Origin: a virus | Virus record (IMG/VR): IMGVR_UViG_3300021197_001241 | Location: 1-62,606 of that record | Reading direction: 5' to 3' (one strand) | DNA length: 62,606 nt | Shown here: positions 8,604-62,606 of the stretch, in pieces | How the letters are laid out: every line of letters begins with the position of its first letter | How positions within the stretch are numbered: the first letter of the stretch is position 1 | The notes under the pieces: model-generated | What the model saw: the letters and a program-made list of their open reading frames with translations, nothing else | Database searches by the model: none | Told to the model about the DNA's origin: nothing | Position numbers and translations under genes: made by a program

Positions 8604-10178
8604 CTATTTTTCAATAACTGAATAGTTTGTAGTTATTAGTGTTCCAGCGACTGATGCTGCGTTTTGTAGAGATGTTCTAGTGACTTTTACGGGGTCAATT
8701 ACTCCTGTTTCAAACAAATCTTCTATCTCGTTTGTTACAAAATTATAGCCGTAATTGCCATCTTTAGAACTATTTCGTACCATTTCACTAACGATGTCTG
8801 GAGACAGACCTGCATTCTTAGACATCTGACGCAATGGTCCTTCAATAGCTTGTTTAATAATCTGAACACCAACAGCCTGATCTGGATTATCTACTTCCAC
8901 ATCCAAACTATTTGTTGCCCTCATTAATGCCACGCCGCCTCCGGGTACAATCCCTTCCATCTGTGCTGACCGTACAGCCTCAAGTGCATCTTCAATCCTG
9001 TGTTTCTTTTCTGTCATTTCAATCTCTGTCAGTCCTCCGACACGGATAATTGCAATGCCGCTTGCGAGTCTGGCAATCCTATCTTGAATCTTTTCACATT
9101 CATTTAAATTGTTTTCTTCCCGCAAGTCGTCTTTTAGGTCTGCGATAGTTCTATCAATTTGATCTTGGTCACCTCGACCGCCGACGATTGTTGTTTGTGT
9201 TCTGGTAATATCAATTCGAGAAGCATTTCCAAAATCAATAAGTTTAACATCTTGCAGTTTCTTTCCTGCCGAGCGACTAACAAAAGTTGCGCCAATCGAT
9301 ACTGCCAAATCTTTAAGAATGTTTTGTCGCTCTTCTCCATATCGAGGTGCTTTAATGGCTGCGACTTTCAGAGTTCCTTTTAGCGCGTTCATAATCATTG
9401 CTGCCAATGCCTGACCTTCAACCTCGGTCGAAACAAAGATCAAGGGTCGTGCTTCTCGTGCAGCCAGTTCCAGAGTCTTCATGATATCTTGAACATGCTC
9501 GATTTTTTCATCCGTCACTAGAATTAAAGGATCGTCATATGTTGCAGAGCGTCGTCTCTCGTCGGTGATAAAAGAACTAGAAGCCCAACCAGAGTCCACG
9601 CGAAACCCTTCAACCAAATCCAGAGATGTTTTGTGTGACTTAGCTTCTTCGACAGTGATGGCACCGTCTTTGCCAGCAGCCGAAACAGCTTTTGCAATAA
9701 GGTTCCCGATAGTGTTATCGTTATTCGCAGAAATGCTCGCTACGTGGGCGATGTCGGCTTCGGACTTAATAGGAGATGAAATACTCTCTAGGTTTTCTAC
9801 GATAGCGTCAACAGCCTTCTCGATGCCTCTCTGAATCTCTACTGGCGGAGTTCCAGCCGAAATATGCTTTTGTGCACGATTCAGAATTTCTCTTGCCAAG
9901 ACTGTAGAAGTTGTTGTTCCATCTCCAGCATCTTGATTAGTTTGGGCGGCCGCTTGTTTTACAATTTGGACTGCTGCATTTTCAACGGGATCTTCTAGAT
10001 CCACGAAGTTTGCCACAGTAACGCCGTCCTTTGTAATGATTGGACGCTTGCCCCTCTCTTGAAGGATAACATTTCTTCCTCGTGGACCGAGTGTAGACCC
10101 TACGTTGTCAGCCAAAATATTAACACCGTTCAAAATCTTTTGGTTCATATTGGAACCAGAACTATAATGCTTAGTCAA
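8604..10178 (-). CDS. groEL: Chaperonin GroEL (524 aa)
   Basis: Near full length for a GroEL subunit. Visible signatures: LGPRGRNVILQERGKRP, the ATP-binding GDGTTTSTVLAREIL (the catalytic Asp kept), and the hinge/equatorial return VPGGGVALMRA. The C-terminal GGM repeat of E. coli GroEL is absent. The start is TTG, placed after AGAGG, with a perfect promoter directly upstream. It folds phage (and possibly host) proteins in the cytoplasm. A GroES-like gene lies at 27257-27535, so phage EL-like independence or a matched pair are both possible. Confidence 0.95.
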   Translation of the reverse strand: MTKHYSSGSNMNQKILNGVNILADNVGSTLGPRGRNVILQERGKRPIITKDGVTVANFVDLEDPVENAAVQIVKQAAAQTNQDAGDGTTTSTVLAREILNRAQKHISAGTPPVEIQRGIEKAVDAIVENLESISSPIKSEADIAHVASISANNDNTIGNLIAKAVSAAGKDGAITVEEAKSHKTSLDLVEGFRVDSGWASSSFITDERRRSATYDDPLILVTDEKIEHVQDIMKTLELAAREARPLIFVSTEVEGQALAAMIMNALKGTLKVAAIKAPRYGEERQNILKDLAVSIGATFVSRSAGKKLQDVKLIDFGNASRIDITRTQTTIVGGRGDQDQIDRTIADLKDDLREENNLNECEKIQDRIARLASGIAIIRVGGLTEIEMTEKKHRIEDALEAVRSAQMEGIVPGGGVALMRATNSLDVEVDNPDQAVGVQIIKQAIEGPLRQMSKNAGLSPDIVSEMVRNSSKDGNYGYNFVTNEIEDLFETGVIDPVKVTRTSLQNAASVAGTLITTNYSVIEK

Positions 10179-16169: not shown

Positions 16170-16410
16170 GGTCTTTTTTCCAATTATATGAATGAATTAT
16201 AAAAGAAGCATGACTATGCAAGGGATCTGGATATCCTCCTAATGAATACTTTTTACACATCTTCCATAAAACATTTCTGAAGTATTCTGAATTCCCTGTG
16301 ATTACTTTAAGTGGAAAGTCGTCAAAGTGATCAGTTATAAATTTTTCCAGTGTATCTTCTGCATCCTCATGCGAAACACCATGCAAATCAATGATGTTCT
16401 TTTTTTTCAT
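16150..16410 (-). CDS. Smr-domain-like protein (86 aa)
   Basis: DLHGVSHEDAEDTLEKFI, then LKVITGNSEYFRNVLWKM, matches the DLHG...A...L and (V/I)I(T/H)G pattern of small MutS-related domains, which bind or cut branched DNA or stalled ribosome mRNA. The usual HGxG loop is replaced by TGNS, so nuclease activity is uncertain. The start overlaps the adenylosuccinate synthetase stop by one base (TGATG). Confidence 0.6.
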   Translation of the reverse strand: MKKKNIIDLHGVSHEDAEDTLEKFITDHFDDFPLKVITGNSEYFRNVLWKMCKKYSLGGYPDPLHSHASFIIHSYNWKKDLDNSSH

Positions 16411-17408
16411 CAGATTGTCTCTGGGCTAGAAGAAAATACAACCTCTATGTCTTTGAAATAATTTCTAATGTAATCACAGAACTGTTCTTTATTCTGGAAT
16501 GTAAATAAATTATTTCTCCCCTGATCGACGTACACAGACCACGAACCCACTGTTTCAAGTATATCCATCTTGTTAAAGATCAAGTTAGTGACCCCGTTCA
16601 TTCGGATAACCTTATCTAAGTTTGGCAGATTCATCCAGTTACATTGACGTTTTCTGCCTGTAGTCGCGCCGTACTCTTGACCAACTTCCTGAATGGCATT
16701 GAACACCTCGTTCTCTGGTTGGAATTCTTTTGTACCGACATAAGTTTCATATGCCTTTGCTACACCAATGACGTGACGGATTGAATTAGGGGGAAACCCA
16801 TTTAGACAAGCACCTGCGCTAGTGCAATGACTACTTGTTACATATGGATAATCTCCCCAATCGATATCAAGCTCGGCTCCTTGAGCACCCTCACATAATA
16901 CTCGCGCATCTGGATTGGCAAGATAAAACTCCTCATACATATCAATCAGGTAGTCTTCCAATATAGGGTAATCCTCTGCACGCTTTCCCTGTCTGGCATA
17001 CTTATCACTGTAGCAAGGACCGTTTCCTGTTCGCGTTGTTCCTAGCTTTGTTTCTTTGGAATCTGCTCGCTGATGAGTTCCTTGGATGATGTGCGCGTTT
17101 TTGGCAATAAAGATTTTGTTGTAAATCTCTATGCCTCCTTCGCGAAGCATCTTAATTTCATCGAAAAACTTATGGATGTCTACGACGCAGCCGGGCCCGA
17201 TGACACTCTTTACACCAAAGAAAACACCAGCTGGGATATGATGTGTAACAAATTTTTCACCATTATGATAGATTGTGTGACCAGCATTGCAACCCCCATT
17301 GTAGCGAACACAATGAGTATATCCTCCATTCTTAAGAAGGTGATGGGTAACTTTTCCCTTACCCTCATCTCCGTGTTGCATCCCAATAATTACGTCTACT
17401 TTTAACAT
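16410..17408 (-). CDS. purA: Adenylosuccinate synthetase family (PurA/PurZ) (332 aa)
   Basis: The family loop QHGDEGKGKV keeps the catalytic Asp (D14), NAGH keeps the catalytic His (H44), the aspartate-binding loop is ATTGRKRQ (248-255), and NKMD (279-282) is the guanine-recognition motif. At 332 aa it is short, like archaeal PurA and phage PurZ. As I recall, PurZ enzymes that make 2-aminoadenine replace the catalytic Asp, so D14 points to a PurA-type reaction (IMP + Asp + GTP to adenylosuccinate), with a GTP-using PurZ0-like enzyme as the alternative. The start follows GCAGGA. Confidence 0.88.
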   Translation of the reverse strand: MLKVDVIIGMQHGDEGKGKVTHHLLKNGGYTHCVRYNGGCNAGHTIYHNGEKFVTHHIPAGVFFGVKSVIGPGCVVDIHKFFDEIKMLREGGIEIYNKIFIAKNAHIIQGTHQRADSKETKLGTTRTGNGPCYSDKYARQGKRAEDYPILEDYLIDMYEEFYLANPDARVLCEGAQGAELDIDWGDYPYVTSSHCTSAGACLNGFPPNSIRHVIGVAKAYETYVGTKEFQPENEVFNAIQEVGQEYGATTGRKRQCNWMNLPNLDKVIRMNGVTNLIFNKMDILETVGSWSVYVDQGRNNLFTFQNKEQFCDYIRNYFKDIEVVFSSSPETI

Positions 17409-48338: not shown

Positions 48339-48584
48339 TCATTTTTTATTTGCTTTCTTTACTGCTTCTGCTTCGTTCTCTATTTCTTTAACAAGACGCT
48401 GCAAAAACCACCTTCTTATTTGAATAGGCAGGTTGTATGCTTCTGTGAAAGACCACCCGCCATGATACTTCATTAAGAAAAATTCTTCATACACATTCTG
48501 AATGTATTCATTATTTAGGCCAAAGAAAGGATACAGTGAACGGAACCTCCACGTCCGTATTAGCACCACAACTTGGACAATCAA
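48339..48584 (-). CDS. Tail assembly chaperone partner, possibly a frameshift product (81 aa)
   Basis: The useful part is FFGLNNEYIQNVYEEFFLMK and then GWSFTEAYNLPIQIRRWFLQ, typical of short tail-assembly proteins after a hub gene. The ORF opens with a TTG inside the upstream gene, overlapping it by 74 nt in the +1 frame, with no ribosome-binding site nearby. It may be made by frameshift from the upstream gene, or from an internal start such as the ATG of MKYHGGW. Confidence 0.55.
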   Translation of the reverse strand: MIVQVVVLIRTWRFRSLYPFFGLNNEYIQNVYEEFFLMKYHGGWSFTEAYNLPIQIRRWFLQRLVKEIENEAEAVKKANKK

Positions 48585-49350
48585 ATTCGAATGTCATATC
48601 AATGTTCGGAGTCGCCTTGGCATAAATACTTCTCAAATGTCTAGTATCTCTTGAAGGCATTACAGAAACAAACTGATTGATTGTTGATCTATCAGAGTTT
48701 CCGTTCACTGATACTATAATCGATTTTAAGTGGTCCGTCAAAGGAGTTTCTTGTAATTTATTTTTTCTTTTTGATTCCAACAGCGATGACAGCTTCTGTT
48801 CATCAATCCCATTTAGAAGTTTGACTTCGACTGTCACATTTGTCGTCGGAAGATCAATAAAGAAATTTCCGGTATCCGAAGTCTCTACTTCCGCATCGTC
48901 AGAGCTTGAAACACCAACGTTGTTTAAATCAAAAGAATACTCTGTCGATGTGGCACAGGAAGGACATGTGATTTGCGTTTCATAGTCACTTCCAAATCCA
49001 GTAATTCTTGTTGCGACAAGAATAGCATTTCTGTCTCCAACAAGCAAGGTTTTTGGATTAATATTTTTATCCAATATAACGCTTTCAAGCAATCTTTCAA
49101 TTGCCAAGCCTTTCTTTAACAAGCTTTGAGAAGTTAGAATATCTTCTTCTTTCGCTGTCATATATTTTATTTCAACAGTATCTTTGCCACATAAAGGATG
49201 ACCTTCGGGATAATATATTCCCCCCGAAGGCAAATCTACATGTTCTGTTGGTGCTGAAAAATTAAAACCTGTTGTCGGTACAGGGTCGGCATGAGCTGGC
49301 TTTTCTTTTTCCAAGCCTGTAGCCTTCTTTCTACTACTATTTCTAGACAA
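48511..49350 (-). CDS. Baseplate hub/tail chaperone, gp26-like (279 aa)
   Basis: LPSGGIYYPEGHPLCGKDTV, then MTAKEEDILTSQSLL, matches hub subunits of T4-type phages. Two CPSC motifs (about residues 128-131 and 260-263) suggest a zinc ribbon. The C-terminus VEVPFTVSFLWPK overlaps the 81-aa ORF. It lies between the tube gene and the tube-initiator-like gene, matching tail assembly chaperone position. Confidence 0.65.
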   Translation of the reverse strand: MSRNSSRKKATGLEKEKPAHADPVPTTGFNFSAPTEHVDLPSGGIYYPEGHPLCGKDTVEIKYMTAKEEDILTSQSLLKKGLAIERLLESVILDKNINPKTLLVGDRNAILVATRITGFGSDYETQITCPSCATSTEYSFDLNNVGVSSSDDAEVETSDTGNFFIDLPTTNVTVEVKLLNGIDEQKLSSLLESKRKNKLQETPLTDHLKSIIVSVNGNSDRSTINQFVSVMPSRDTRHLRSIYAKATPNIDMTFEFDCPSCGANTDVEVPFTVSFLWPK

Positions 49351-49376: not shown

Positions 49377-49919
49377 TTAGTTTTTCCAATAAGTTCTACC
49401 AGATGCAACCAATTCCGCCCAATCATATTTAAAGTCGATTGTTACTTCTGATAAGGCATCATCGCCATACTCAAGCTCGCCATACCCAACTTTAATGATG
49501 AAAGCGTTTTTAAGAGTCCACTTTTCTAGATCATTTCCATCTGAATCAATAGCTCGGATGACGACATCACCAACTGCAGCTGTTGATCTGGCTTTTGAGT
49601 TTGTTTGCGGGTTTGGATTCTTCAATTGAGAAGGACCAGCATAGCCAGACTGCTCAAGCATTTGCGCTGTAAGTTTGGCAGCGTCTGGGCTAACAGGATC
49701 AACGAGAGTCATGCTGACCTCATTCCAAGTAACCATTCCCGGATAATGAAATTTGTGATTCAAGTATGTGTGTTCTGTTGATTCAACAGTGATTTCTGGC
49801 TTGTTGACACCTTTTGCAAACCAAATTGCTCCAACATCATCCATTCCTGTAATTTGAACCAGAAATCTATATTTTCTTTTAGGTTCGACATTTGCGCTAG
49901 TCCAAAAACTGTTTACCAT
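49377..49919 (-). CDS. Tail tube protein, gp19-like (180 aa)
   Basis: Begins MVNSFWTSANVEPKRKYRFL, then GAIWFAKGVNKPEITVESTE, and closes with YGELEYGDDALSEVTIDFKY: the standard myophage tube layout and size. It forms the inner tube, assembled on the initiator and surrounded by the sheath encoded just upstream. Confidence 0.88.
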   Translation of the reverse strand: MVNSFWTSANVEPKRKYRFLVQITGMDDVGAIWFAKGVNKPEITVESTEHTYLNHKFHYPGMVTWNEVSMTLVDPVSPDAAKLTAQMLEQSGYAGPSQLKNPNPQTNSKARSTAAVGDVVIRAIDSDGNDLEKWTLKNAFIIKVGYGELEYGDDALSEVTIDFKYDWAELVASGRTYWKN

Positions 49920-49975: not shown

Positions 49976-52828
49976 TTAATCTCCGAATGCTGCTCCGCTA
50001 TCTGTGATAACAAAGTCAATTGCGATATATTCAATCGCCTTAGCTGGCTTAACATAAACCTTTGCATAAACAATATTTTGGTCTATTAAGTCAGGTGTTG
50101 TTGTTGTGTCATCGAGAATCAATCTATATTCACTGATTCCTAGTCTATTCTGGACACTTCTTAGAATCGGATCTGCAGCTGCAATAAACCTATTCCAAGT
50201 AACCTGTACATTTTGATCGAACAGGATTCCGTTGGCAACTGCTGAAATTTGTTTCTTAACAAAGATCATCATGCGGCGAACGTTAATTCTATCAAGAGCA
50301 GAAGGAGTAGCTTGAAGTGTCTTCTGACCGAAGATAACGATTCCTTCGTTCGGGAAAGATGCGATTGGGTTGATGTTTGCATCATAAAGTTCATCTCTAT
50401 CTTGAGATGTCAACCTTTCAGTGACTGCCACTACTGGAAGTCCCGCAGAACCTTCTGTTAAGCCGCCGCGATTGAAACCAGCTGGGGCGAACCAGACTTC
50501 TGATTGAGCTTCTGAAGAAGCAAAAGTTCCGAGAGCAACTACTGAAGGTGGAACCCAAAGTAGACCGCCGTTGACGGTATCCCTGACTTGAACCCAAGGA
50601 TAGTAAGTGCAAGCATAAGAGCTGTTAATTTCTCTAGCCTGAAGGTTACTGACCGCTGTGCTTACAGATCCCAATCTGTTGCTAAACTTCTTGTATGCCG
50701 AATTAGTTTCGACGAAAGGAGTGTAAACATCTGGGATATCGACAACAGCCATCGCGTCACCTCTGTCTTCACAAACTTGAATCATGTGCTCTGTCAATGT
50801 GGGATCTGTAAGACCCGGCATTGCGATAAGATTCATGTCTATAAATTCTGGGTCTGCAACTGTGTCAATCGCTCTTCTGATTGAATTAGCAGCGTAATTT
50901 TGTTGAGCCGATTGGTCGCTAATGATATTATTGCTGAATGGCTCAAGTGCTGTAATATCAAGTCCGTCGAAACCATTGAAAAGAGGCGAAGTGAATTTAG
51001 TGTATCCCTTATCAATAACTTCTTTCCAGCCTTTAGAGCCTGAAGCCGTCATTGAATCTCCGTCTTTTCTAGATTCTTCTTCCCAGTAAACGTTTGAAGC
51101 TCCAGAAAGAATCAATTCGTCCAAAGAGAATGTCCATTGTGGGTCTAATTTATCTGTTGAAGGATCATCAGAGGTGCCAAAGTCATCACTTAGAGCATAG
51201 ATATAGTCACTGTAACCCGGATCTGCTCTATTTTCTCTAGAACCATCGGTTCCAGACAATTCCATATAAGAAGAAACATTTAATCCAAAGTAAGCATTTT
51301 TTGGATTTGAAATTCCGCCTGCTGAAGCAGATGTTCTAATTGCCGATGATGGGAAGTTTAGCTTTAATTCAACCGCTGTGCCCAAAGAGCCGGTATTCAA
51401 AACATCAGCTGGTCCAAATGCACCTTTTGATCCGGACATAATGATTGTTGACGTGCTGCCGACTGAGGTAGCTGTCATTTTAGGAGTACCCTCATACTTT
51501 GGAGGCCCATAAACACCGAATGGTAACAATCTAGGATCGATAGCAGACTGTTCTACTGAGGAATCCATTTCGACTCTGACATATGCCGAAACATTGTCGT
51601 AGTTTCCATATGATTTTAAAATTCTTTTTGTGCCGTCCCAAGCCAGTGTTCTGTCTCCAATCTTTCTCGCGACATAGTTTTGCGAAAGAGGATTTAGATT
51701 ACAGTTTGAAAATCTTTCAATGATTTGTGGAACATTATCTGTATCGCTTGCTTTTCTAAGGACCACCGTGAAAGAACCAAAAGGATTTACGCCCGCAGTG
51801 TCTCTAGAGTAAGTTAAATCTTGAATCGAGATCTTGATATTTTCTTGTGTTTCCTGACCTGCAGAAAGTGCATGCAAGCGGAAAAGCTTTTGCATGTTAT
51901 CATATGCATATGAGCCAGTATTTGTTGTCAAATCCTGCGAGAAGAACCAACCAGTGTGGGATTCTCTTGCATCTTGGCGATACTCATTTTTTCCTAGAAG
52001 TGGCAAAATAACACCAACACAATTTGCATCGAGATCTACTTTGTCCATCAAAGAAGCTTCAAAAGTTTCTCCTAGCCAGTATTCGCTCTCTCCACTTTTC
52101 AGATTGTCAGTTGGAATAACACCGCCAACGGTTTGAGGATTTGTGTTGAAAACATTTCTGATGTATCTTTGACTTGATTTATTGAAATTAAATGCTGTTT
52201 TGTGTGCTACGTTGTCTGTAGCTGAACTGCCCGTAACAATCATCGCTACGAACTCGGCTTTGTCAGAATTGTTGATCAAGTGCCCGATGGAGGCTGTTAG
52301 GGTTGTTCCGCCCGCTTCTGAGCCACTTAGAACAACTGCTGATCCGCTATCAATATACCATATAGCTGCCAATGAGCCAGTCATTGAACCACCAGCAGAA
52401 GAGGATGGTGCGACGAACAAACCATATGCGCCGCCGTTTGAAAGAACTGCCGGATTTGGATCAAGTGTTTCCCAGCCTGCTTCACCGCCTGCTGTGACAT
52501 CTTCGTTTTTAAAACCAAGAAGTCTAACAAATGTAACAGAGTCAACATCGGCTGCTAAATAAGCTTGAGCCGCATAAGACCCATACGTTGGGGCTTGGTA
52601 GTTTCCCTCCCTCCATACATCGCCAGTTCTTTTGCCAGCAACAGGATTTCCGAAGACTTCCACAAATTGCTCGAATGAGTCTACTTTAACGGGCTTCATG
52701 CCCGGACCCTTTGGCGTTCTGCCAATAATTACCGGACCTGCCGGTGCTGCAGCTGCTGGGAGCTGCGAGTTATCAATCTCTTTGGTGAAAACACCGGGAG
52801 ATACAAATTTGAATTTTTTTACAGACAT
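49976..52828 (-). CDS. Tail sheath protein, gp18-like (950 aa)
   Basis: VSPGVFTKEIDNSQLP at the N-terminus is a sheath hallmark. The C-terminal domain with YPWVQVRDTVNGGLLWVPPS, FAPAGFNRGG and the end IEYIAIDFVITDSG gives the contractile domain. At 950 aa it is far longer than T4 gp18 (659), with extra Ser/Gly-rich inserted domains (about residues 150-560) likely exposed on the surface. It contracts to drive the tube into the host. AGGAGAA precedes the ATG. Confidence 0.92.
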   Translation of the reverse strand: MSVKKFKFVSPGVFTKEIDNSQLPAAAAPAGPVIIGRTPKGPGMKPVKVDSFEQFVEVFGNPVAGKRTGDVWREGNYQAPTYGSYAAQAYLAADVDSVTFVRLLGFKNEDVTAGGEAGWETLDPNPAVLSNGGAYGLFVAPSSSAGGSMTGSLAAIWYIDSGSAVVLSGSEAGGTTLTASIGHLINNSDKAEFVAMIVTGSSATDNVAHKTAFNFNKSSQRYIRNVFNTNPQTVGGVIPTDNLKSGESEYWLGETFEASLMDKVDLDANCVGVILPLLGKNEYRQDARESHTGWFFSQDLTTNTGSYAYDNMQKLFRLHALSAGQETQENIKISIQDLTYSRDTAGVNPFGSFTVVLRKASDTDNVPQIIERFSNCNLNPLSQNYVARKIGDRTLAWDGTKRILKSYGNYDNVSAYVRVEMDSSVEQSAIDPRLLPFGVYGPPKYEGTPKMTATSVGSTSTIIMSGSKGAFGPADVLNTGSLGTAVELKLNFPSSAIRTSASAGGISNPKNAYFGLNVSSYMELSGTDGSRENRADPGYSDYIYALSDDFGTSDDPSTDKLDPQWTFSLDELILSGASNVYWEEESRKDGDSMTASGSKGWKEVIDKGYTKFTSPLFNGFDGLDITALEPFSNNIISDQSAQQNYAANSIRRAIDTVADPEFIDMNLIAMPGLTDPTLTEHMIQVCEDRGDAMAVVDIPDVYTPFVETNSAYKKFSNRLGSVSTAVSNLQAREINSSYACTYYPWVQVRDTVNGGLLWVPPSVVALGTFASSEAQSEVWFAPAGFNRGGLTEGSAGLPVVAVTERLTSQDRDELYDANINPIASFPNEGIVIFGQKTLQATPSALDRINVRRMMIFVKKQISAVANGILFDQNVQVTWNRFIAAADPILRSVQNRLGISEYRLILDDTTTTPDLIDQNIVYAKVYVKPAKAIEYIAIDFVITDSGAAFGD

Positions 52829-53356: not shown

Positions 53357-53386
53357 AAAAAACCCCCCCTTGTTTCCAAGGGGGGG
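53357..53386 (-). terminator. Rho-independent terminator after the fibre gene
   Basis: Minus strand stem CCCCCCCTTG / CAAGGGGGGG with a 4-nt loop, then TTTTTT. A very strong hairpin placed 39 nt after the fibre stop. Confidence 0.9.
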
Positions 53387-53424
53387 CAAAATCTTTATTT
53401 AGATTCTAATTCGAGTCGTGCAGA

Positions 53425-56400
53425 TTATGCAGAAGTTTTCTTAACGTACTTGATTACAACGTAGTCACCCGGCTCAGAAGCGTGCTTGAGTTCAACCTCA
53501 TCATCGCCACCTGATCCAAATTCCCAATCGTAAGAAGCACCCATACGCTGAAGCATACCGTTAACGAATACCATTACGGATTCCTGATGTGCTTCTGCAG
53601 AAATGGTAAACAATACTTGATTGTTTGTTGCGTCGAACTCTTCAGTTACGTGGTCGCCCTTACGAACGAATGCCGCGTTACCTGACTTGGTATCGATAAC
53701 TGCTGTCTCGAAGGTGTCGAGAGCTTGGTCAAGCTTATCGAGTGCGCCTTCTACAGAAGTTTCGATAGAGCCACCAGTTTTGATGTAACGAACATTACCA
53801 GCTTGAAGGTCAATTTGACCAGCAGATGTTAAGCCCATATTTGTCAAAGCTGTTCCAATAGCAGCGTCAAGATCTGAAAGATCAGTCGTGATGTCGCTGT
53901 TGCCGTTGATGTAATTCTTTCCAGAGAAAGCAACATAGTTGCCGCTGGAATCAATTATAGCACCCATAGCGTGGCGATTATCATCAATTGCGCCTACAAC
54001 AGAATCAAGAGCAGCGTCTACTTGAGAAGCAGCGAGCGTGAATTTGCTGTGAGCACCTGCCTGTCCGTCGTAACCGACCTTAGCAGAACCCTTAGTAGCT
54101 ACTTGAGAAAGAACGTCGGCGATGTGATCGTCGGTGGCTTTCATTTCAGCGTCTAAACCAAGAGCAAGTGAATCCAAAGAAGCATCTACCTTAGCGGCAG
54201 AGAGAGAGAAAAGTGAGTTTGCACCCGCTTGACCATCATAGCCAACTTTAGCAGCACCTGTTGCATTCGCAAGAAGAGCAGCTTCAAATACATCGAATTC
54301 CTGACGGTCAGCGTCGATGGCATCAACGATAGAATCAAGAGCAGCATCTACTTGAGAAGCAGCAAGAGTGAAATCTCCGTTTGCGCCTACCTTTCCATCA
54401 TAACCAACAAGAGCAGAACCTTCTCCAGCTACCTGAGAAGCCAGTGTGGTGTTACCAGCGTCAAGTTCGTTGATCGCTTCAATCAAAGTTTGAGCAGTTG
54501 TGGTCAAAGTTGAAGAAGCAGATGCTTCGATACGGGCCGCAATCTCAAGCATTGTGTCCAAAGATGGATCAACAGATGCGCGGAGATCCTGCTTAACTTC
54601 CAAAATCATGTTCTGGATGCTTGCAGAAAGTGAACTTGCACCTTGGTCATCAAGAGTGTTCAAAGAAGACGAAAGTTGTGATAAGGTTTGAACCATATCT
54701 GCAGATCCGCCAATAGCAGATGTAACAGCTTGGTCAATCTTATACTCAACAGAACCTGTGACATAATCGTCAGCTTCCATCAAGTCAACTTTGTCGATGA
54801 TTGCTTCAAGAGCAGACTTAACAGTACCACCAGCAACTGCAAAGTGAGCGCGTCCGTCGTTAGAGTTAGCAGCTGTGCCTGTGTAAGCCTTGAAGCCTAC
54901 TTTTGCAGAACCTTTAGCAGCGTCGGAGTTGTTAAGCATATCAGCGATGTGATCATCAGTTGCCTTCATTTCAGCGTCTAAGCCAAGAGCAAGTGAATCC
55001 AAAGAAGCATCTACCTTAGCAGCAGACAAAGAGAAGAGGCTGTTCGCGCCAGCTTGTCCGTCATAACCTACCTTAGCAGCACCTGTTGCATTTGCAAGAA
55101 GAGCAGCCTCGAATACGTCAAATTCTTGACGGTCAGCGTCAATAGCGGTTACAATGTCATCCAGTGCAGCATCGACTTGCTTTGCAGTAATACTGAAATC
55201 ACCATTTGCACCTTGTTGTCCGTCATAACCAATCTTTGCAGCACCTTTAGTTGCTGTCTGTGAAAGAAGATCTGCTTGATAATCATCAACAACTTTCATT
55301 TCTGCATCAATCTTTAAGATCACGTCGTCTAAAGCAGCGTCAACTTTCTTAGCTCCTACAGAGAAAAGAGAGTTAGCACCAGCTTGTCCGTCGAATCCTA
55401 CCTTAGCGGCACCTGTTGCATTTGCAAGAAGAGCAGCCTCGAATACGTCGAACTCCTGACGATCAGCATCAATAGCGTCAACGATAGAATCAAGAGCAGC
55501 GTCTACTTGAGAAGCAGCAAGAGTGAAATCACCATTTGCGCCGGTTTTGCCATCATAACCAATTTTGGCAGAACCTTTAGTTGCTGTCTGGGAAAGAAGC
55601 TCGGCTTGATAGTCGTCAACAACTTTCATTTCTGCGTCAATCTTTGTTACGATAGAGTCAAGAGATGCATCTACCTTAGCAGCGGATAGCGAAAAGAGTG
55701 AGTTTGCCCCAGCCTGTCCGTCGTAACCGACCTTAGCAGCACCTGTTGCGTTCGCAAGAAGAGCAGCTTCGAATACATCGAATTCTTCACGGTCAGCATC
55801 GATGGCATCAACGATGTCGTCGATTGCAAGATCCAATCTCTTGGCAGAAATTGAGAAGTCGCCATTTGCACCAGCGTGTCCAGAAAATCCGACAAGAGCG
55901 GAACCAGAAGCAGCTGCTGTAGAGGACATATCTGCCTCATGTTCAGCCATCTCGTTTGCGCGAAGTGTAGCTTGCTGATTCAAGTGGTAATCAAGAATCT
56001 GCGTAGCATTGTGAACACTTGTTGCAGAATTGATGTATGTTGCAGATGAAGAAACAACATATTGACCAGAAGCAGAAATACCAATTGCGGATTCATGCTC
56101 ATCAAATAAGTCTTGGAATGATGCGGTGCCTAAAGCAGCGTCATCAATTTTGTTAGCGATTGTTGTCAAAGCGGATTTGACATCAGTGTCGCCAGATGCG
56201 TTAAGAAGCGGAGCTTCAGAAGCACCCCATGAAAGTGACGCACTAAGTGAGTTAGCAACGCCTAATAGAGAATTCAAACGAGCAGCGACGAAACCACCGT
56301 GAGCAATTTGCTTACGGTCAGACATCGAATATTCACTATCCATCTTCACAGTACCATCTGCGAGAATCATGTGACCATCCGATCCTGCCACATCCGTGGT

Positions 56401-56451
56401 GTTATCGAGCTGAGTTTGTGCTCTCATTTTTGTTTTTTTAGATACAGCCAT
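53425..56451 (-). CDS. Repeat-rich fibre-like structural protein (1008 aa)
   Basis: About nine to ten units of roughly 55 residues with the core VGYDGQAGAN..F.L.A..VD..LD carry residues 185-830. These are coiled, trimeric-looking helical repeats alternating two types (DADRQEFDVFEAALLANATG and DAEMKVVDDYQAELLSQ). The last 70 residues form a beta domain (SVMVFVNGMLQRMGASYDW). The design resembles a long fibre or whisker. AGGAGG precedes the ATG. A terminator follows. Confidence 0.75.
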   Translation of the reverse strand: MAVSKKTKMRAQTQLDNTTDVAGSDGHMILADGTVKMDSEYSMSDRKQIAHGGFVAARLNSLLGVANSLSASLSWGASEAPLLNASGDTDVKSALTTIANKIDDAALGTASFQDLFDEHESAIGISASGQYVVSSSATYINSATSVHNATQILDYHLNQQATLRANEMAEHEADMSSTAAASGSALVGFSGHAGANGDFSISAKRLDLAIDDIVDAIDADREEFDVFEAALLANATGAAKVGYDGQAGANSLFSLSAAKVDASLDSIVTKIDAEMKVVDDYQAELLSQTATKGSAKIGYDGKTGANGDFTLAASQVDAALDSIVDAIDADRQEFDVFEAALLANATGAAKVGFDGQAGANSLFSVGAKKVDAALDDVILKIDAEMKVVDDYQADLLSQTATKGAAKIGYDGQQGANGDFSITAKQVDAALDDIVTAIDADRQEFDVFEAALLANATGAAKVGYDGQAGANSLFSLSAAKVDASLDSLALGLDAEMKATDDHIADMLNNSDAAKGSAKVGFKAYTGTAANSNDGRAHFAVAGGTVKSALEAIIDKVDLMEADDYVTGSVEYKIDQAVTSAIGGSADMVQTLSQLSSSLNTLDDQGASSLSASIQNMILEVKQDLRASVDPSLDTMLEIAARIEASASSTLTTTAQTLIEAINELDAGNTTLASQVAGEGSALVGYDGKVGANGDFTLAASQVDAALDSIVDAIDADRQEFDVFEAALLANATGAAKVGYDGQAGANSLFSLSAAKVDASLDSLALGLDAEMKATDDHIADVLSQVATKGSAKVGYDGQAGAHSKFTLAASQVDAALDSVVGAIDDNRHAMGAIIDSSGNYVAFSGKNYINGNSDITTDLSDLDAAIGTALTNMGLTSAGQIDLQAGNVRYIKTGGSIETSVEGALDKLDQALDTFETAVIDTKSGNAAFVRKGDHVTEEFDATNNQVLFTISAEAHQESVMVFVNGMLQRMGASYDWEFGSGGDDEVELKHASEPGDYVVIKYVKKTSA
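53962..55899 (-). repeat. Tandem ~165-nt repeats inside the fibre gene
   Basis: Near-identical nucleotide units encode the VGYDG...GAN blocks, about nine to ten copies with one interruption (around 54430-54850). Copies match well enough to recombine. Confidence 0.8.
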
Positions 56452-56604: not shown

Positions 56605-56637
56605 AAAAAAGAATCCCGCAAGTTGATTTGCGGGATT
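56605..56637 (-). terminator. Rho-independent terminator after the PrkA operon
   Basis: Minus strand perfect 10-bp stem AATCCCGCAA / TTGCGGGATT with a 6-nt loop, then CTTTTTT. It lies 28 nt after the PrkA stop. Confidence 0.92.
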
Positions 56638-56665
56638 TATTATTTCAAAAAAGCTTTTTTAAATT

Positions 56666-58606
56666 TTAACTGTCGCGCCACAAGTTATTTGAGGCATATT
56701 TAATGATCTCATTTGCTGAGTCTTCATTGTATGCATATTCCTCAATAAGCTTCTGAACCATTTCGTTGTATTTACCTTGTTGTTTCTTGTCTCTTGATTT
56801 AGACTTAGTAACAATTCGAGAAATATCCCTAACAGAATCAAGCAGCTTGTTTTCGATTGCTTCTTTTAACGGGCCATAAGATGTCCAGTCAATTTTTTCA
56901 CCTTTTCTCAACTTAGCAAACATGTAAGCTGTAATATCGGCTCTAAAGTTTTCTCTAGCGGAGCCAACGATTCCAATTTGCTCTTCAATCGAAGACAAGA
57001 AGTTTTCGTCTGCTTCCATTTCTTCGTTTGTTACGTTGTCTTTAACCTTTACGCCATTCACATAAGCTTCAGCGTGGTCAAGATAATTGTCAAACAAAGA
57101 TTCTGCTTGTTCTTTATAAGCTGATACGAAAGCTTTTGTGATTTCTTTTTCTAGAATCTTCAAATACTCTTCGTGAAGCTCTTTCTGCAAGAATGAAAGA
57201 TATTTTTCTCTTAGGTCTTCTACGACAACCTGTTCTTTGACTTGTTTGACCAGAGCATCTCTGATTGAAATAGGAGTAACCATGTTTCTGTCAGAATCTG
57301 CCAGAGCTGCATCGATAGCCTTCATGATAAATCTGGTTGAAATACCAGTCATGCCTTCATCTCTGGCCTCATCACGTAGGTCATTGATATCAATCTTTTT
57401 AACATATCCCTTCTCAACGATCTCTTCTCCGTTGTAGATCTTCATCTTAGTCAAAGGATCTACCTTGTTTGAGGTCTGTAGTCTAGAGAGGACAGCGAAC
57501 ATAGCTGCGAGTTCCAAGGTATGAGGAGCGATGTGTGATTCAAAATCAGATTCGTCAAGCATCTTCTTATAAATCTTTTGCTCTTCATCCACCTCAAGAC
57601 AATAAGGAACGTTAACTCTGACAATTCTGTCTAGAATCGCTTCGTTTGTGTTTTCTGATTTAAATTTGTTCCACTCTGCCTCATTACAGTGTGCCAAGAT
57701 AACACCATCGAAATAAATCATTGCACCTTTACCGGGGGATGGTACTGCTTTCTCTTGTGTTGCAGTAATCATTGTGTGCAAGAATTCAATTTCGTTTTTG
57801 AAAACCTCAACGAATTCGACAATTCCACGATTTCCTACGTTGAATGCCCCGTTAAGGCTTAGAGCACGAGGATCGTCTTCCGGATAGAGGTCTAATTTTG
57901 AAATGTCTTCTGACCCTATTAGAATGCTTGTGTCTTGAGTATTTGCATCCATAGGAGGAACAACTCCAACACCTCTTCTTCCTCTAATAGAGAAAGAGCC
58001 TTCGACTACTGGATAATTCATGTAATCTCCGCCATGCTCTTCGAGGAGACGATGACGACAGACAGGGCACAAATCACCTTCAATTTTGATGCCGTATATG
58101 TCTTTAAAATTTTCTCTTAAAGAGCGAGGGACCAAATGTAGTGGGCTTTCGTTAATAGGGCAATCCTTGAGAGTGTAAAAGGATCCGGACCCTTCAAGGG
58201 CGCGTTTGATGTGTTCAATCAGAGCTGACTTGCCAGCTCCTACCGGGCCAAGAAGTAAAAGAACCTGTCGGCTTTCTTCACCCTTCATTGATGCAGAATG
58301 CAAATACCTCATTACTTTAGCCAAAGACCTTTCCATACCAAAGAATCTAGATTGGAAATAATCGTAAGTGCGAACTGCTTCTCCGTTGAAAAGATTGTTG
58401 CATCTACTGTCTTCTTCTGACATCCTAGTGATGCCATGAGAGGTGATCGCCTTATAAAGCCTTTTGTGTGCCAAAATAGACAGTCCCTTGTCTTTTGCCA
58501 ATAACTCAAGATAGTCAGACAAAGTACCAGAAAACTTCTCTACTTTTTTGTTTTTTTTGTGCTCCTCAGTGAGCTTAAGAAATTGTTTTGTTTTTGAATC
58601 AGTCAT
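56666..58606 (-). CDS. prkA: PrkA/YeaG-like AAA+ serine kinase or protease (646 aa)
   Basis: Full length for the family (E. coli YeaG 644 aa). Walker A LLGPVGAGKS is at 118-127. NRGIVEFVEVFKNEIEFLHT, then FDGVILAHCNEAEWNKF and AILDRIVRVNVPYCLEVDEE, are strong PrkA signatures. The C-terminal PrkA domain is present. The family controls stress and starvation responses, acting with YeaH, and has been described as a kinase and as an ATP-dependent protease. It is the last gene of the operon, starting 1 nt after the SpoVR stop. Confidence 0.93.
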   Translation of the reverse strand: MTDSKTKQFLKLTEEHKKNKKVEKFSGTLSDYLELLAKDKGLSILAHKRLYKAITSHGITRMSEEDSRCNNLFNGEAVRTYDYFQSRFFGMERSLAKVMRYLHSASMKGEESRQVLLLLGPVGAGKSALIEHIKRALEGSGSFYTLKDCPINESPLHLVPRSLRENFKDIYGIKIEGDLCPVCRHRLLEEHGGDYMNYPVVEGSFSIRGRRGVGVVPPMDANTQDTSILIGSEDISKLDLYPEDDPRALSLNGAFNVGNRGIVEFVEVFKNEIEFLHTMITATQEKAVPSPGKGAMIYFDGVILAHCNEAEWNKFKSENTNEAILDRIVRVNVPYCLEVDEEQKIYKKMLDESDFESHIAPHTLELAAMFAVLSRLQTSNKVDPLTKMKIYNGEEIVEKGYVKKIDINDLRDEARDEGMTGISTRFIMKAIDAALADSDRNMVTPISIRDALVKQVKEQVVVEDLREKYLSFLQKELHEEYLKILEKEITKAFVSAYKEQAESLFDNYLDHAEAYVNGVKVKDNVTNEEMEADENFLSSIEEQIGIVGSARENFRADITAYMFAKLRKGEKIDWTSYGPLKEAIENKLLDSVRDISRIVTKSKSRDKKQQGKYNEMVQKLIEEYAYNEDSANEIIKYASNNLWRDS

Positions 58607-58607
58607 G

Positions 58608-59909
58608 TTAGAATTCCCAAGGTTCCCCTTCTATTATTGTTGTGAATGCCACATCGTCATTCCAAAGATAACAAATGTGATCGTAAACTCTGTTTGCGAA
58701 CGATAGTTCGAGATCTCTGCCGTCATGCTCGTGCTCAACATAAAGAGTATTAGTCTTTTTGTCAAAATCACTAACATACACTACAGGAGCGGATTTAAGT
58801 CCGACATTACTAATTAGAGTGTCCCGAACTGTTTTCCACCCTTCTTCATCAGAAATATCATTTATTGAGTAATTTCCCTTTCCTTGGTCAAAGGAATATG
58901 AAAAAAGGTTTAGCTCCCTGCAAAGATCTAGATCTAAATATTTTCTTATAAAAGACTCGTCGTCATGCGTTTCTCGAACCAATAAACATTCTTCGAAACC
59001 ATGCTCTTCTTCTATTTTCTTAAATATTTTGTAACCTAAGTGGTAAGGATTTACTCGACCAACAATTGGGCGTACCACTTGGTTGTGTGTTTTTAAAAAG
59101 GCAAGATGGTATTTATCTGGTAACTCCAAATCATTCATGATCTTTTCGTGGATAGTCACCGCCCATCCTTCGTTCATAATTTTGGTTTGTGCCTGTGGAA
59201 TAAAATACAAAGATCTTCTTTCCACCATCTCTATTAAATCTTGTTGCCAAGATTCTAAATTTCTAGCGTTTTCCTTAATGAATCTCAATAAATTATAGTC
59301 TTTGTTTAAAAGACCATTTCGGACATCCATTACTCCTTTTGTTTTATCAAAAAGCTCTCTCCTAGCCTCGTCCTCGGTTTTTCTTTTAATGCCGGGTGTT
59401 CTAGGCACTTGATATTGAATCGAGTGACACGCATCAAGTACGCGCTCTACACGGTCTATTCCAATATGGGGATCTTCAATATAGCTTTGAACTCTCTTGG
59501 CTGCGGCTCTGAATCTTGAAATCACATTGTTTGGATCTGTATATTTAAACATTCTGTTATTTTTAAAGAAGTCAGAGTGACCCACACAATGGGACATTGT
59601 TAACAAGTGTGTGCTCATTGGATTCTCAAGCATCAGATAGGCAATTGAAGGATTAGAGTTAATAATCATCTCATAAGGCAATCCTTCCATTCCGAGATTG
59701 TATCTTGTGATTGTTCTTTCGAATGACTTGCCAAAAGACCAATGACGATAATGCGTTGGCAAACCTGTATAAGCCATGGCACCAATCATCTCGTGATAAT
59801 TTAAAATTTCATACTCAATAGGGAACCAATCAAGATTGTATTTCTCTTTTGCGATCTTACATATCTCATCGTCCCACATTTGTAATTCTTTTACGGACCA
59901 GTCTTTCAT
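58608..59909 (-). CDS. SpoVR/YcgB family protein (433 aa)
   Basis: Slightly shorter than B. subtilis SpoVR (468) and E. coli YcgB (510). Visible family blocks: WFPIEYEILNYHEMIGAMAY, HWSFGKSFERTITRYNLGM, EMIINSNPSIAYLML and HCVGHSDFFKNNRMF. The biochemical function of the family is unknown, but it is linked to spore cortex formation and is co-conserved with PrkA and YeaH. CGGAGG precedes the ATG, which overlaps the YeaH stop (ATGA). Confidence 0.92.
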   Translation of the reverse strand: MKDWSVKELQMWDDEICKIAKEKYNLDWFPIEYEILNYHEMIGAMAYTGLPTHYRHWSFGKSFERTITRYNLGMEGLPYEMIINSNPSIAYLMLENPMSTHLLTMSHCVGHSDFFKNNRMFKYTDPNNVISRFRAAAKRVQSYIEDPHIGIDRVERVLDACHSIQYQVPRTPGIKRKTEDEARRELFDKTKGVMDVRNGLLNKDYNLLRFIKENARNLESWQQDLIEMVERRSLYFIPQAQTKIMNEGWAVTIHEKIMNDLELPDKYHLAFLKTHNQVVRPIVGRVNPYHLGYKIFKKIEEEHGFEECLLVRETHDDESFIRKYLDLDLCRELNLFSYSFDQGKGNYSINDISDEEGWKTVRDTLISNVGLKSAPVVYVSDFDKKTNTLYVEHEHDGRDLELSFANRVYDHICYLWNDDVAFTTIIEGEPWEF

Positions 59910-61114
59910 GGCTTTCCTCCGAACAGTTTCCTAAAAGAAGGCCATATATGTTGCGGCTTGGATATTTTAACTTTTTTGAAACTGTCGCCAGTAACAACAT
60001 CTAGTTTATTCCACAACTTAGAAGCCTCACTCTGATTATAATGAAATGACTTACTCAATATTGCTAATTCTGATTCTGGGTCAGAATTTGGATCGATCTC
60101 TGCGTAACAAGTCATCTGACTTATTTCTTTTAATTCCTGAAACAAGGCTATCGTCTTTGGGTCGTCAAATGACCAATTCTCTCCGTCGCCAGAATAGAAT
60201 GTATAGATGTTCCATGTTGAGGGGTGGTATCTCTTATTGATGATGTCTTTTTCCAAAGTAAGGGCTGAAGACATGACTGTTCCGCCCATTGTTCCTCTTT
60301 TAAAGAAGTCGTCCTCATTCACTTCCTTCGCTTCTGTGGAGTGAGAGATGAAAACGACCTCTATGTTATCATACCGATAGCGAAGAAACTGATATAAAAG
60401 GAAATAAAAGCTTCTTGCCATATATTTCTTTTCTTTGTTCATGGAACCAGAAACATCCATCAGGAAGAAGATGACAGCAGAATTGTTTTCTTGAGGCTTC
60501 TGCTTCATGTGCTTATATTTTAAGTCATCTTCATGAAACGGAAACCTTTCATCTGAATTTTCATCGTAGGTTCCAGCAGCTATTGCCATTTTCTTACGTC
60601 TAATCTTTCTTTTGATTGTTTCTTTTTTCGAAAGCCTTGAGTTTAACCCCTTCTTTCGGAATCCGCTTCTTTTGAGCTTGTAATCTTTGATAAATCTGAA
60701 TTTTTTCTTTTCTAAATCTGGCAATTCAAGATCTTGGAAAAGATATTCTGCGAGTTCATCTAATGTGACTTCGACTTCATAATATTCTTCACCTTTCTCA
60801 TTAGAGCCTTTATTGCCGGATGCTTTCTTCTTTTGTTTGCTGGACTTTCTTAAAATTTGTCCTTTTTTTATTTCTTTGTCACCGGCAGAACCAGCCTTTT
60901 TGTTGTCTTTGTTTTCACCATAGACAAGCTGATATTCCTTGATTCCTTTAACTGGAATCTTGACTTTCTTTTTGCCATTTTGACCGATAATAGACTCGTC
61001 AGCAACAACGTCTCTCAAGCCTTCTTTTAAGGCTTTGTCGATTTTTTCTTTGTGTCTCTTTCGGTCTGCTGCGGAACGGTCGGCAATAGATTTGTGTTCG
61101 CGAAAGATGCTCAT
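59906..61114 (-). CDS. YeaH/YhbH (DUF444) VWA-domain protein (402 aa)
   Basis: Starts MSIFREHKSIADRSAADRKR, the family N-terminus. The MIDAS motif DVSGSM lies near 220-225, then IEVVFISHSTEAKEVNEDDF and TVMSSALTLE complete the VWA-like fold. Slightly shorter than E. coli YeaH (427). YeaH partners PrkA in stress signalling in bacteria. It is the first gene of the three-gene operon. The start has no ribosome-binding site, with CTATTTATAGT directly ahead, so a leaderless mRNA is possible. Confidence 0.92.
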   Translation of the reverse strand: MSIFREHKSIADRSAADRKRHKEKIDKALKEGLRDVVADESIIGQNGKKKVKIPVKGIKEYQLVYGENKDNKKAGSAGDKEIKKGQILRKSSKQKKKASGNKGSNEKGEEYYEVEVTLDELAEYLFQDLELPDLEKKKFRFIKDYKLKRSGFRKKGLNSRLSKKETIKRKIRRKKMAIAAGTYDENSDERFPFHEDDLKYKHMKQKPQENNSAVIFFLMDVSGSMNKEKKYMARSFYFLLYQFLRYRYDNIEVVFISHSTEAKEVNEDDFFKRGTMGGTVMSSALTLEKDIINKRYHPSTWNIYTFYSGDGENWSFDDPKTIALFQELKEISQMTCYAEIDPNSDPESELAILSKSFHYNQSEASKLWNKLDVVTGDSFKKVKISKPQHIWPSFRKLFGGKP

Positions 61115-61116
61115 AC

Positions 61117-61125
61117 TATAAATAG
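61117..61125 (-). promoter_or_regulatory. CTATTTATA motif at the start of the YeaH operon
   Basis: Minus-strand CTATTTATA ending 2 nt before the ATG and lying between the adhesin terminator and the operon. Confidence 0.35.
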
Positions 61126-61130
61126 AAAGT

Positions 61131-61155
61131 AAAAAGGGCTTCCGACCAGAAACCC
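61131..61155 (-). terminator. Rho-independent terminator before the YeaH operon
   Basis: Minus strand stem GGGTTTC / GAAGCCC (one G-U pair), 6-nt loop, then TTTTT. It works only in the minus direction, since the plus strand would have a C-A mismatch. Confidence 0.8.
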
Positions 61156-61181
61156 TAATTATTTTTGTGATACGATTGCGA

Positions 61182-62606
61182 TTAAGATGTCTTAATCAAC
61201 AAGTATCCGCTTGTAGCAGTTATTGATCCACCGGTAGCTCCGCCTTTGCCGTAATTTGAATAATCAGAATCGCCTGTACCTGCCGGGGTGTGCCCAGAGC
61301 CTGCTGTGGTAGTTGCGTTTGTGACTTCCGAACTGGTTGAAACATATCCGGAGCCGCCGCCGCCTGTTCTAGCGTCAGAGTAGCCTCCGCCGCCTCCGAA
61401 ATAACCGCCGCCGCCTCCGCCGCCGTCGTCAGTACCGGAATTTTGTGCACCTCTCGAATTACCACCTTGGAGGGCAGATCCGGCGTAGGCTTGACCGGAA
61501 TTTCCACCTGCGGTTTGAGAACCACCTAGTCCCGCACTACCGTCTTGTCCAGTGGTTCCACCACCGGCACCAGCGTGAGTGCCGTATCCAGTACCACCAC
61601 CACCGCCGCCTGCGATAAGTAGTGCGCCAGATTGAGAATGATATGCTTTAAAGAGCCCACTATACCCACCGCCGCCGCCGCCAGAAGCATCGCCGCGAGA
61701 GCCGTACCCTCCACCGGGAAGTCCTCCGGAGCCGCCATTAGTGTATGCGCCAGCAGAGCCACCCTTTGTTGCGGCGTAGGCATAATATGCTACACCACTC
61801 TGGAATGCAATGTTTCCTTTGGTAAAGCCACCAGCACCAGCGTTACCACTGGTACCATAAGACCCATGTCCACCGCCAGCACCCCACATTTTAACATTTA
61901 CAGTAAATGTGCTTGTTGGAGTAATCGTGTATTGCGCCCCATCTTGTGGAATCGCCAATTGACCATCTGTGTCCAAGTTCCATGCAGACTTACCACTGAT
62001 AGATGGGGAAACATTGAATATCCTACCTGTGATAGTTCTTCCATTAGAGTGCAATGCAGCTGCCTCTGATGAAAAAAGTGACCTATTCCAGATTTGCAAA
62101 TCATCGAGGGATCCATCAAACCAAGTACCGGGTGAATGACTATTGTGATCCCACTTGCCGAGTCTAATTGCCTCTGTTGGAGAAAAGGTACCTGTTGCGG
62201 CTGTAGATGAAGCTTCGAGCGAACCATCAATATAGAGATACAAGTTTTGTCCATCCCTGACAGCAGAGACATGATGCCAGCTACCGTCGTTAATATTTGT
62301 TGTTGAATAAATTTTTGTTGTTGCATTAGCTCTGTTTCTCCAGAAGAACATAAGTTTATTTGCCGGTCCTCCTGATTCGTTTACTGCCATTAGCCAAGCC
62401 TCATTGTTACCTCCGCCGTAGGCTTTCAAGAAGAAATATCCTTGACTTGTCTGTGATGTTTTAATCCAAGTAGACATAGACACGGTATCACTAGAGAATC
62501 CGTGATTCGCATCATGTGGAATGTCTATCCCATCGTTCACGCCGTCGAATGTTACATGCCCTCTAGAATCTACTTCAGAGAACGTTGCGCCAGAATTCGT
62601 TCCGTT
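61182..62606 (-). CDS. LamG plus glycine-rich adhesin/tail fibre, C-terminal part
   Basis: The frame is open to the right edge (NGTNSGATFSEVDSRG...), so the true start is beyond the window. An in-frame GTG at 62540 is not the start. The first visible domain is a LamG/concanavalin-like fold (SMSTWIKTSQTSQGYFFLKA, HHVSAVRDGQNLYLYIDG, RLGKWDHNSHSPGTWFDGSL). Then comes a long glycine-rich segment (GGGGGGYFGGGGGYSDA) as in T4-type gp38 adhesins. It probably recognises a host surface glycan. A terminator follows. Confidence 0.75.
   Translation of the reverse strand, partial: NGTNSGATFSEVDSRGHVTFDGVNDGIDIPHDANHGFSSDTVSMSTWIKTSQTSQGYFFLKAYGGGNNEAWLMAVNESGGPANKLMFFWRNRANATTKIYSTTNINDGSWHHVSAVRDGQNLYLYIDGSLEASSTAATGTFSPTEAIRLGKWDHNSHSPGTWFDGSLDDLQIWNRSLFSSEAAALHSNGRTITGRIFNVSPSISGKSAWNLDTDGQLAIPQDGAQYTITPTSTFTVNVKMWGAGGGHGSYGTSGNAGAGGFTKGNIAFQSGVAYYAYAATKGGSAGAYTNGGSGGLPGGGYGSRGDASGGGGGGYSGLFKAYHSQSGALLIAGGGGGGTGYGTHAGAGGGTTGQDGSAGLGGSQTAGGNSGQAYAGSALQGGNSRGAQNSGTDDGGGGGGGYFGGGGGYSDARTGGGGSGYVSTSSEVTNATTTAGSGHTPAGTGDSDYSNYGKGGATGGSITATSGYLLIKTS

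Follow-up and report, generated by a model that had tools for sequence, protein, structure and literature searches.

The 62,606-nucleotide window analyzed here (G000; IMG/VR virus record IMGVR_UViG_3300021197_001241, a linear fragment of 62.6 kb taken at its full length) carries genes for a DUF444 protein of the YhbH/YeaH type, SpoVR and PrkA (hereafter the trio). This is a genuine phage version of a stress system known from bacteria, captured more than once and kept under selection. The three genes lie head to tail and are all full-length, with an overlap of 4 nucleotides (nt) between DUF444 and SpoVR and a gap of 1 nt between SpoVR and PrkA (Table 1). An intact trio amid virion genes had been read from the DNA alone in an earlier note (the original prediction), and this stands: the families are assigned by Pfam, and a fibre-like gene lies on one side with sheath, tube and hub genes on the other. 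The explanation favored here, with confidence somewhat short of even, is a phage-owned PrkA-DUF444-SpoVR stress system that was captured whole from a Clostridia-like source, has been kept under selection, and would act late in infection as an AAA+/vWA/SpoVR complex on host physiology.

The same three families form the prkA-DUF444-spoVR operon of bacteria (yeaG-yeaH-ycgB; prkA, yhbH, spoVR), and the window genes match it in being full length with intact motifs; unlike the operon, they show a rotated order, fall in a separate phage clade and stand amid virion genes. The link to stress that the original prediction gave for the bacterial homologues agrees with the literature, as E. coli yeaG and yeaH mutants have a common nitrogen-starvation phenotype (PMC4664914).

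Distribution, Linkage and Selection

Scans of IMG/VR returned 119 relatives for the window SpoVR, 156 for the window PrkA and 282 for a more distant SpoVR, the sets overlapping. The order DUF444-SpoVR-PrkA is found on one strand in 151 of the 157 loci of the first scans, most of the others being cut by contig ends, and throughout the 80 loci of a later, independent scan; recurrence of an identical arrangement on this scale excludes chance or misassembly. The search for the same trio in other large phages, a check proposed by the original prediction, found it on contigs of up to 293 kb, and 16 of 20 large trio contigs have a Gp23-type capsid and 17 of 20 a terminase. Between the three proteins, pairwise distances correlate at r 0.82-0.88.

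Comparison of the window with its nearest relatives gives ratios of nonsynonymous to synonymous change (pN/pS) of 0.10-0.14 for PrkA, 0.11-0.19 for SpoVR and 0.12-0.25 for DUF444; between the same phages the tail sheath gives 0.31-0.43 and the tail tube 0.26-0.52. All are to be taken as relative values only since synonymous sites are saturated. Compared with the adjacent virion genes, the trio changes more slowly, and it is under strong purifying selection.

Bacterial flanking genes, as from an assembly join, had been named as what would overturn the original prediction; phage genes were found on both sides, and the identical arrangement recurs in many other loci. That the trio is an assembly artefact or a recent, useless piece of host DNA has a negligible probability given these flanks, the hundreds of independent contigs, the phage-only clade, the rotated order and the purifying selection, and the one case that could be cited for it is Enterobacter phage LAU1, in which yeaGH at one end of the record looks like a host flank. 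The first 3.3 kb of that record (L168), with yeaG and yeaH, probably come from the host, and proteins identical to these are encoded on an IMG/VR contig (L317).

Origin of the Phage Trio

The phylogeny that the original prediction had called for returned a phage-only clade for each of the three proteins, with Clostridia nearest for PrkA. In the PrkA tree of 128 sequences, 47 window-type phage sequences form one clade with Shimodaira-Hasegawa-like approximate likelihood ratio test (SH-aLRT) support of 100, near Flammeovirga and a clade of 18 rows that are nearly all Clostridia/Bacillota; the SpoVR and DUF444 trees likewise hold one window-type phage clade each (SH-aLRT 100 and 99). The trees are quick, single-model trees with SH-aLRT support only, and the exact sister is unsure. 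Identity of the window proteins to those of Clostridia is ~55-61% for PrkA, ~36-46% for DUF444 and ~39-45% for SpoVR. Judged by these trees, the window-type trio is a single capture for its clade. The best ‘cellular’ PrkA match, from a Methylococcaceae metagenome-assembled genome (L178), was rejected as cellular, being a phage-like contig of the helicase/PhoH group nested in the phage clade; this 305,838-bp contig (NHDW01000006.1, binned as Methylococcaceae TMED69) carries the trio in phage order and a PhoH gene.

Most cellular loci have the order PrkA-DUF444-SpoVR, whereas window-type phages have DUF444-SpoVR-PrkA. The rotated order is also present in a few Bacillota (L204, L209, L210, L213 and L217), so its origin need not lie in phages. 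Thermus phages phiYS40, TMA, phiLo, Lalka8/27 and MN1 share it as well, and in Lalka8 and phiYS40 the trio lies near head or packaging genes, comparable to its virion-gene setting in the window; unlike the window, they form a separate deep clade with PrkA 33-36% identical, and phiYS40 has an extra gene of 616 amino acids (aa) between SpoVR and PrkA. The protein encoded there (L163:7565-9415) has no Pfam match and may be a further subunit or a client.

A second large set of phage trios, termed YeaG-type (IMG/VR lineages and the LR7565xx/LR745206 huge phages), has PrkA, DUF444 and SpoVR as in the window, with Gp23-type capsids encoded on the majority of its large contigs. These trios differ from that of the window in their bacterial PrkA-DUF444-SpoVR order (in huge phages the genes are not always adjacent) and in their mostly Pseudomonadota-type proteins; they are independent captures, which the PrkA tree puts at three or more separate positions. 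Ralstonia jumbo phage RsoM2USA was grouped with them from its published description, which lists SpoVR and PrkA apart, under replication and signalling (PMC8504454); a DUF444 gene is putative there. The huge phage L167 is another separate lineage. The PrkA tree hence implies at least five captures by phages, at least four of them (Thermus phages, YeaG-type lineages, huge phages) separate from that of the window clade.

The Clostridia affinity of the nearest cellular PrkAs and the YhbH-like DUF444 could be taken to mean true sporulation control, with the phage steering a spore-forming host; such a role was proposed for viral spoVR in viromes of an oxygen-minimum zone, where it is reported to be the most abundant viral sporulation gene (PMC8940887). 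This is improbable enough to be given little weight, as the trio is common in non-sporulating bacteria (Pseudomonadota) and occurs in Thermus phages, and capsid relatives infect Flavobacterium, Rhodothermus and Microcystis.

The Three Proteins

PrkA is covered by the AAA domain and the PrkA C-terminal domain, which together span residues 28-637 (Pfam). By alignment, its Walker A Lys126 and its Lys429 correspond to K116 and K426 of YeaG and both are kept; in E. coli, YeaG requires the AAA+ Lys116 and the C-terminal Lys426 (PMC4664914). A sequence search of solved structures matched PrkA to 9xip/9xiq/9xir and returned no match for SpoVR or DUF444. The B. anthracis protein, assigned to AAA+ Clade III, is required for sporulation and under osmotic stress, and neither kinase nor protease activity was detected for it; claims of such activities for PrkA are disputed, in Bacillus too (PMC13001217).

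DUF444 contains a vWA domain in which the metal ion-dependent adhesion site (MIDAS) residues D220, S222, S224, T279 and D310 are intact and invariant across 17 aligned relatives. Its predicted model matches vWA domains with Z up to 17.1, and YhbH is its best NCBIfam model, at a score below that model's cutoff. Known AAA+/vWA pairs, such as MoxR-vWA, RavA-ViaA, CbbQ-CbbO and CobS-CobT, have the gene of an AAA+ ATPase beside that of a MIDAS-bearing vWA protein; in comparison, PrkA belongs to another AAA+ branch, and SpoVR has no counterpart in these systems.

SpoVR is matched by its Pfam profile over positions 1-404 of 407, and the C-terminal domain PF24755 gives a sub-threshold match only. Its motifs are H107-x-x-G-H111 and N246-E247-G-W-A-x-x-x-H254, of which H107, H111, N246, E247 and H254 are invariant in 90 SpoVR sequences, phage and cellular. 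In the predicted model, with a predicted local distance difference test (pLDDT) score of 93.7, both His residues share one helix and the Glu sits on a second. Plain Foldseek found no significant PDB match for this model; a VIA structural second look, the only source of the gluzincin signal, gave nearly all top rows as zincins or gluzincin peptidases (best Z 11.9 for 3o0y, and 9.5 for Pz peptidase A). In that second look the model aligns with gluzincin metallopeptidases (M2, M3, M61, M9 and M49), to whose layout of His, His and Glu over two helices it may correspond; unlike them, SpoVR lacks the catalytic Glu of HExxH, with C, V or A at that position in all 90 sequences, both phage and cellular (alignment A4). 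SpoVR is thus predicted to bind metal and to have a zincin-like fold without being a standard peptidase, a reading that covers the family at large and is not specific to phages. In one huge phage (LR756504.1; L165:14462-16369), the EGWA motif of SpoVR is interrupted directly behind its NEG by an insertion that resembles an intein, with Cys as its first residue and HN at its end, ahead of the next Cys.

Genomic Setting and Transcription

The window is assigned to a marine, T4-like contractile-tailed phage of the distant T4-like (far-T4) type, as judged by its own sheath, tube and hub genes and by the Gp23-type capsids of its relatives. Its nearest relatives have a Gp23 capsid gene a few genes upstream of DUF444, and the window ends before its own capsid gene. 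There the genes run from capsid and head-tail adaptor through two unknowns to the trio, and on to fibre, small gene, sheath, tube and hub. Capsid and sheath relatives are found in the Flavobacterium phages immuto and in Microcystis phage Mel-JY01; Rhodothermus phage RM378 is a relative by its capsid.

The trio was originally described as a separate transcription unit with a terminator at each end. This holds for the window and a few relatives: both flanking hairpins are terminator-like (Table 1), 0 of 200 shuffles folded as well as either, and one relative (L087) has a near-identical hairpin 5' of DUF444. As a general rule it finds no support, as such hairpins occur upstream of DUF444 in 12 of 92 relatives and downstream in 34 of 90, the shuffled controls giving 2 and 0; the relatives thus commonly have a stop downstream of the trio, but not a private upstream boundary. 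In most of the relatives closest to the window, the stop of the preceding gene either touches the start of DUF444 or overlaps it, and there the trio is part of the head-tail gene string.

Between the upstream terminator and the DUF444 start lies a TATTTATA box, tentatively a short AT-rich phage promoter element. Three of the four TAYTTATA sites on the gene strand of the window are intergenic and two directly follow terminators (61124, 53342), a suggestive placement even though their total in the window is not above chance. A very stable terminator-like hairpin (53362-53387; free energy (dG) -24.3) follows the 1008-aa fibre-like gene and is itself followed by the TATTTATA box again. The T4 late promoter TATAAATA was rejected as the upstream element of DUF444, with 1 exact site among 92 relatives and one-mismatch sites not enriched over shuffles.

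Table 1. Coordinates of the trio, its flanking genes and its candidate signals in the window (E, E-value; dG in kcal/mol; z, z-score).
Feature	Coordinates	Strand	Details
DUF444 (YhbH/YeaH-type) protein	59906..61114	minus	402 aa; Pfam PF04285, E 2e-107
SpoVR protein	58608..59909	minus	433 aa; Pfam PF04293, E 5e-116
PrkA protein	56666..58606	minus	646 aa; PF08298 (AAA_PrkA), E 5e-143; PF06798, E 4e-81
Terminator-like hairpin and T-run, end of upstream fibre gene	61135..61156	minus	dG -13.4; z -3.6
Terminator-like hairpin and T-run, after PrkA	56612..56637	minus	dG -15.1; z -4.8
TATTTATA box, possible short AT-rich phage promoter element	61117..61124	minus	between terminator and DUF444 start; tentative
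LamG and glycine-rich fibre-like gene, upstream of trio	61182..62606	minus	Laminin_G_3, E 1e-22; PHROG virion structural protein; cut by contig end
Repetitive fibre-like protein, downstream of trio	53425..56451	minus	1008 aa; repeated GYDGQAGANSLFSL-type units
Tail sheath	49976..52828	minus	950 aa; PHROG_23, E 7e-71
Tail tube	49377..49919	minus	PHROG_4542, E 4e-22
Baseplate hub	48511..49350	minus	PHROG_150, E 2e-21

Function

Phages have captured the trio repeatedly and intact, which indicates that its products function together and that what they do is worth ~4.5 kb to a virus. In the favored explanation, the trio would have been taken as one unit from a Clostridia-like source and is carried as an accessory cassette in rotated order. 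PrkA would be a ring-forming AAA+ motor, DUF444, through its vWA domain and MIDAS, would serve as its adaptor as in other AAA+/vWA pairs, and SpoVR, as a metal-binding, gluzincin-like protein, may be a client or an effector of the PrkA-DUF444 pair. Made together with the virion genes late in infection in this phage group, the complex would remodel or hold host proteins, allowing virion production to go on in a starved or stressed host. The placement of the trio beside GroEL-like and PhoH genes in other phages also counts in favor of this explanation. Late expression, as originally proposed, fits the window subclade and Thermus phage Lalka8 by the position of the trio; in other phages its neighbors (GroEL-like, PhoH, opposed direction) differ, and the timing may too.

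Several points weigh against this explanation. Four relatives with capsids 61-64% identical, on contigs of 95-185 kb, lack PrkA and SpoVR. The neighborhoods of the trio vary, and its expression need not be late throughout; the adaptor role of the vWA protein is an analogy. In an alignment of this phage clade with YeaG, PrkA has Ser236 in the column of R232; R232 is also required in E. coli (PMC4664914), and it is a lineage feature rather than one that defines the family.

Virion assembly is the main rival to the host-physiology explanation, although on the unlikely side: the AAA+/vWA pair with SpoVR would act on head, neck or tail proteins as an assembly chaperone or maturation factor. The location of the trio in the window subclade, between the head-completion genes and the tail sheath with the preceding gene abutting or overlapping DUF444, speaks for such a machine, as do its locations in Lalka8, between portal/minor head and TerL, and in phiYS40, beside TerL. 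However, the four relatives mentioned have the same head-tail cluster with an empty site, their head-completion genes running straight into the tail sheath, and elsewhere the trio adjoins a helicase, GroEL-like and PhoH genes or a PALP enzyme, or opposes the direction of its neighbors. It is an accessory element that is found in several genomic places and keeps together. In one neighborhood group (L051, L058-L067 and L130-L157), a GroEL-like gene of ~450 aa follows the trio and a PIN-PhoH gene lies a few genes on; the chaperonin beside the AAA+ system may be functionally linked to it there.

The accessory, all-or-none distribution and the repeated independent capture would also suit an arms-race gene, with the complex disarming host defence or excluding competing phages. 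Counter-defence or superinfection control of this kind is decidedly unlikely, as the proteins evolve slowly (pN/pS ~0.1), unlike the usual anti-defence proteins, and the bacterial homologues are stress genes. Another unlikely alternative is that the trio, captured at least five times, is a phage-specialised AAA+/vWA/SpoVR machine acting late on phage or ribosomal clients, with a zincin-fold SpoVR of non-peptidase chemistry, and not a borrowed stress gene.

Other Features of the Window

The 1008-aa fibre-like protein has no confident domain in Pfam and PHROG searches, and L087 has a protein 52% identical to it at the same position. The tail sheath is about twice as long as its PHROG profile (496) and probably contains a large extra domain. 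Outside the trio, the window encodes a DnaE-type polymerase, a DnaB helicase, a UvsX-like recombinase, a B12-type ribonucleotide reductase and GroEL, the last a full-length phage protein of 524 aa (8604-10178); searches of the window found 0 tRNA genes and 0 Rfam families. The gene at 16410-17408 encodes an adenylosuccinate synthetase of the PurA type, which PHROGs name the 2-amino type; a PurZ/2-aminoadenine reading was rejected as the PurA-type GDEGKGK motif is kept and PurA models score higher.

Implications

In bacteria, the PrkA-DUF444-SpoVR system is widespread, with ties to starvation, stress and sporulation. A literature search confined to papers outside subscription found the trio nowhere treated as a phage module and no phage role described, in agreement with the original prediction; commonness in the lineage together with a known role had been named there as a second ground for abandoning it, and the trio proved common, with hundreds of contigs and several captures, while no role is on record. 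From these numbers, phages clearly gain something from it. The label of ‘sporulation auxiliary metabolic gene’ for viral spoVR is probably misleading, and the findings suggest a new reading of viral ‘sporulation’ genes, among them the spoVR of ocean viromes (PMC8940887), as components of the PrkA-DUF444-SpoVR stress system. Since the trio is present in cultured Thermus phages, its function is open to testing with phages grown in the laboratory.

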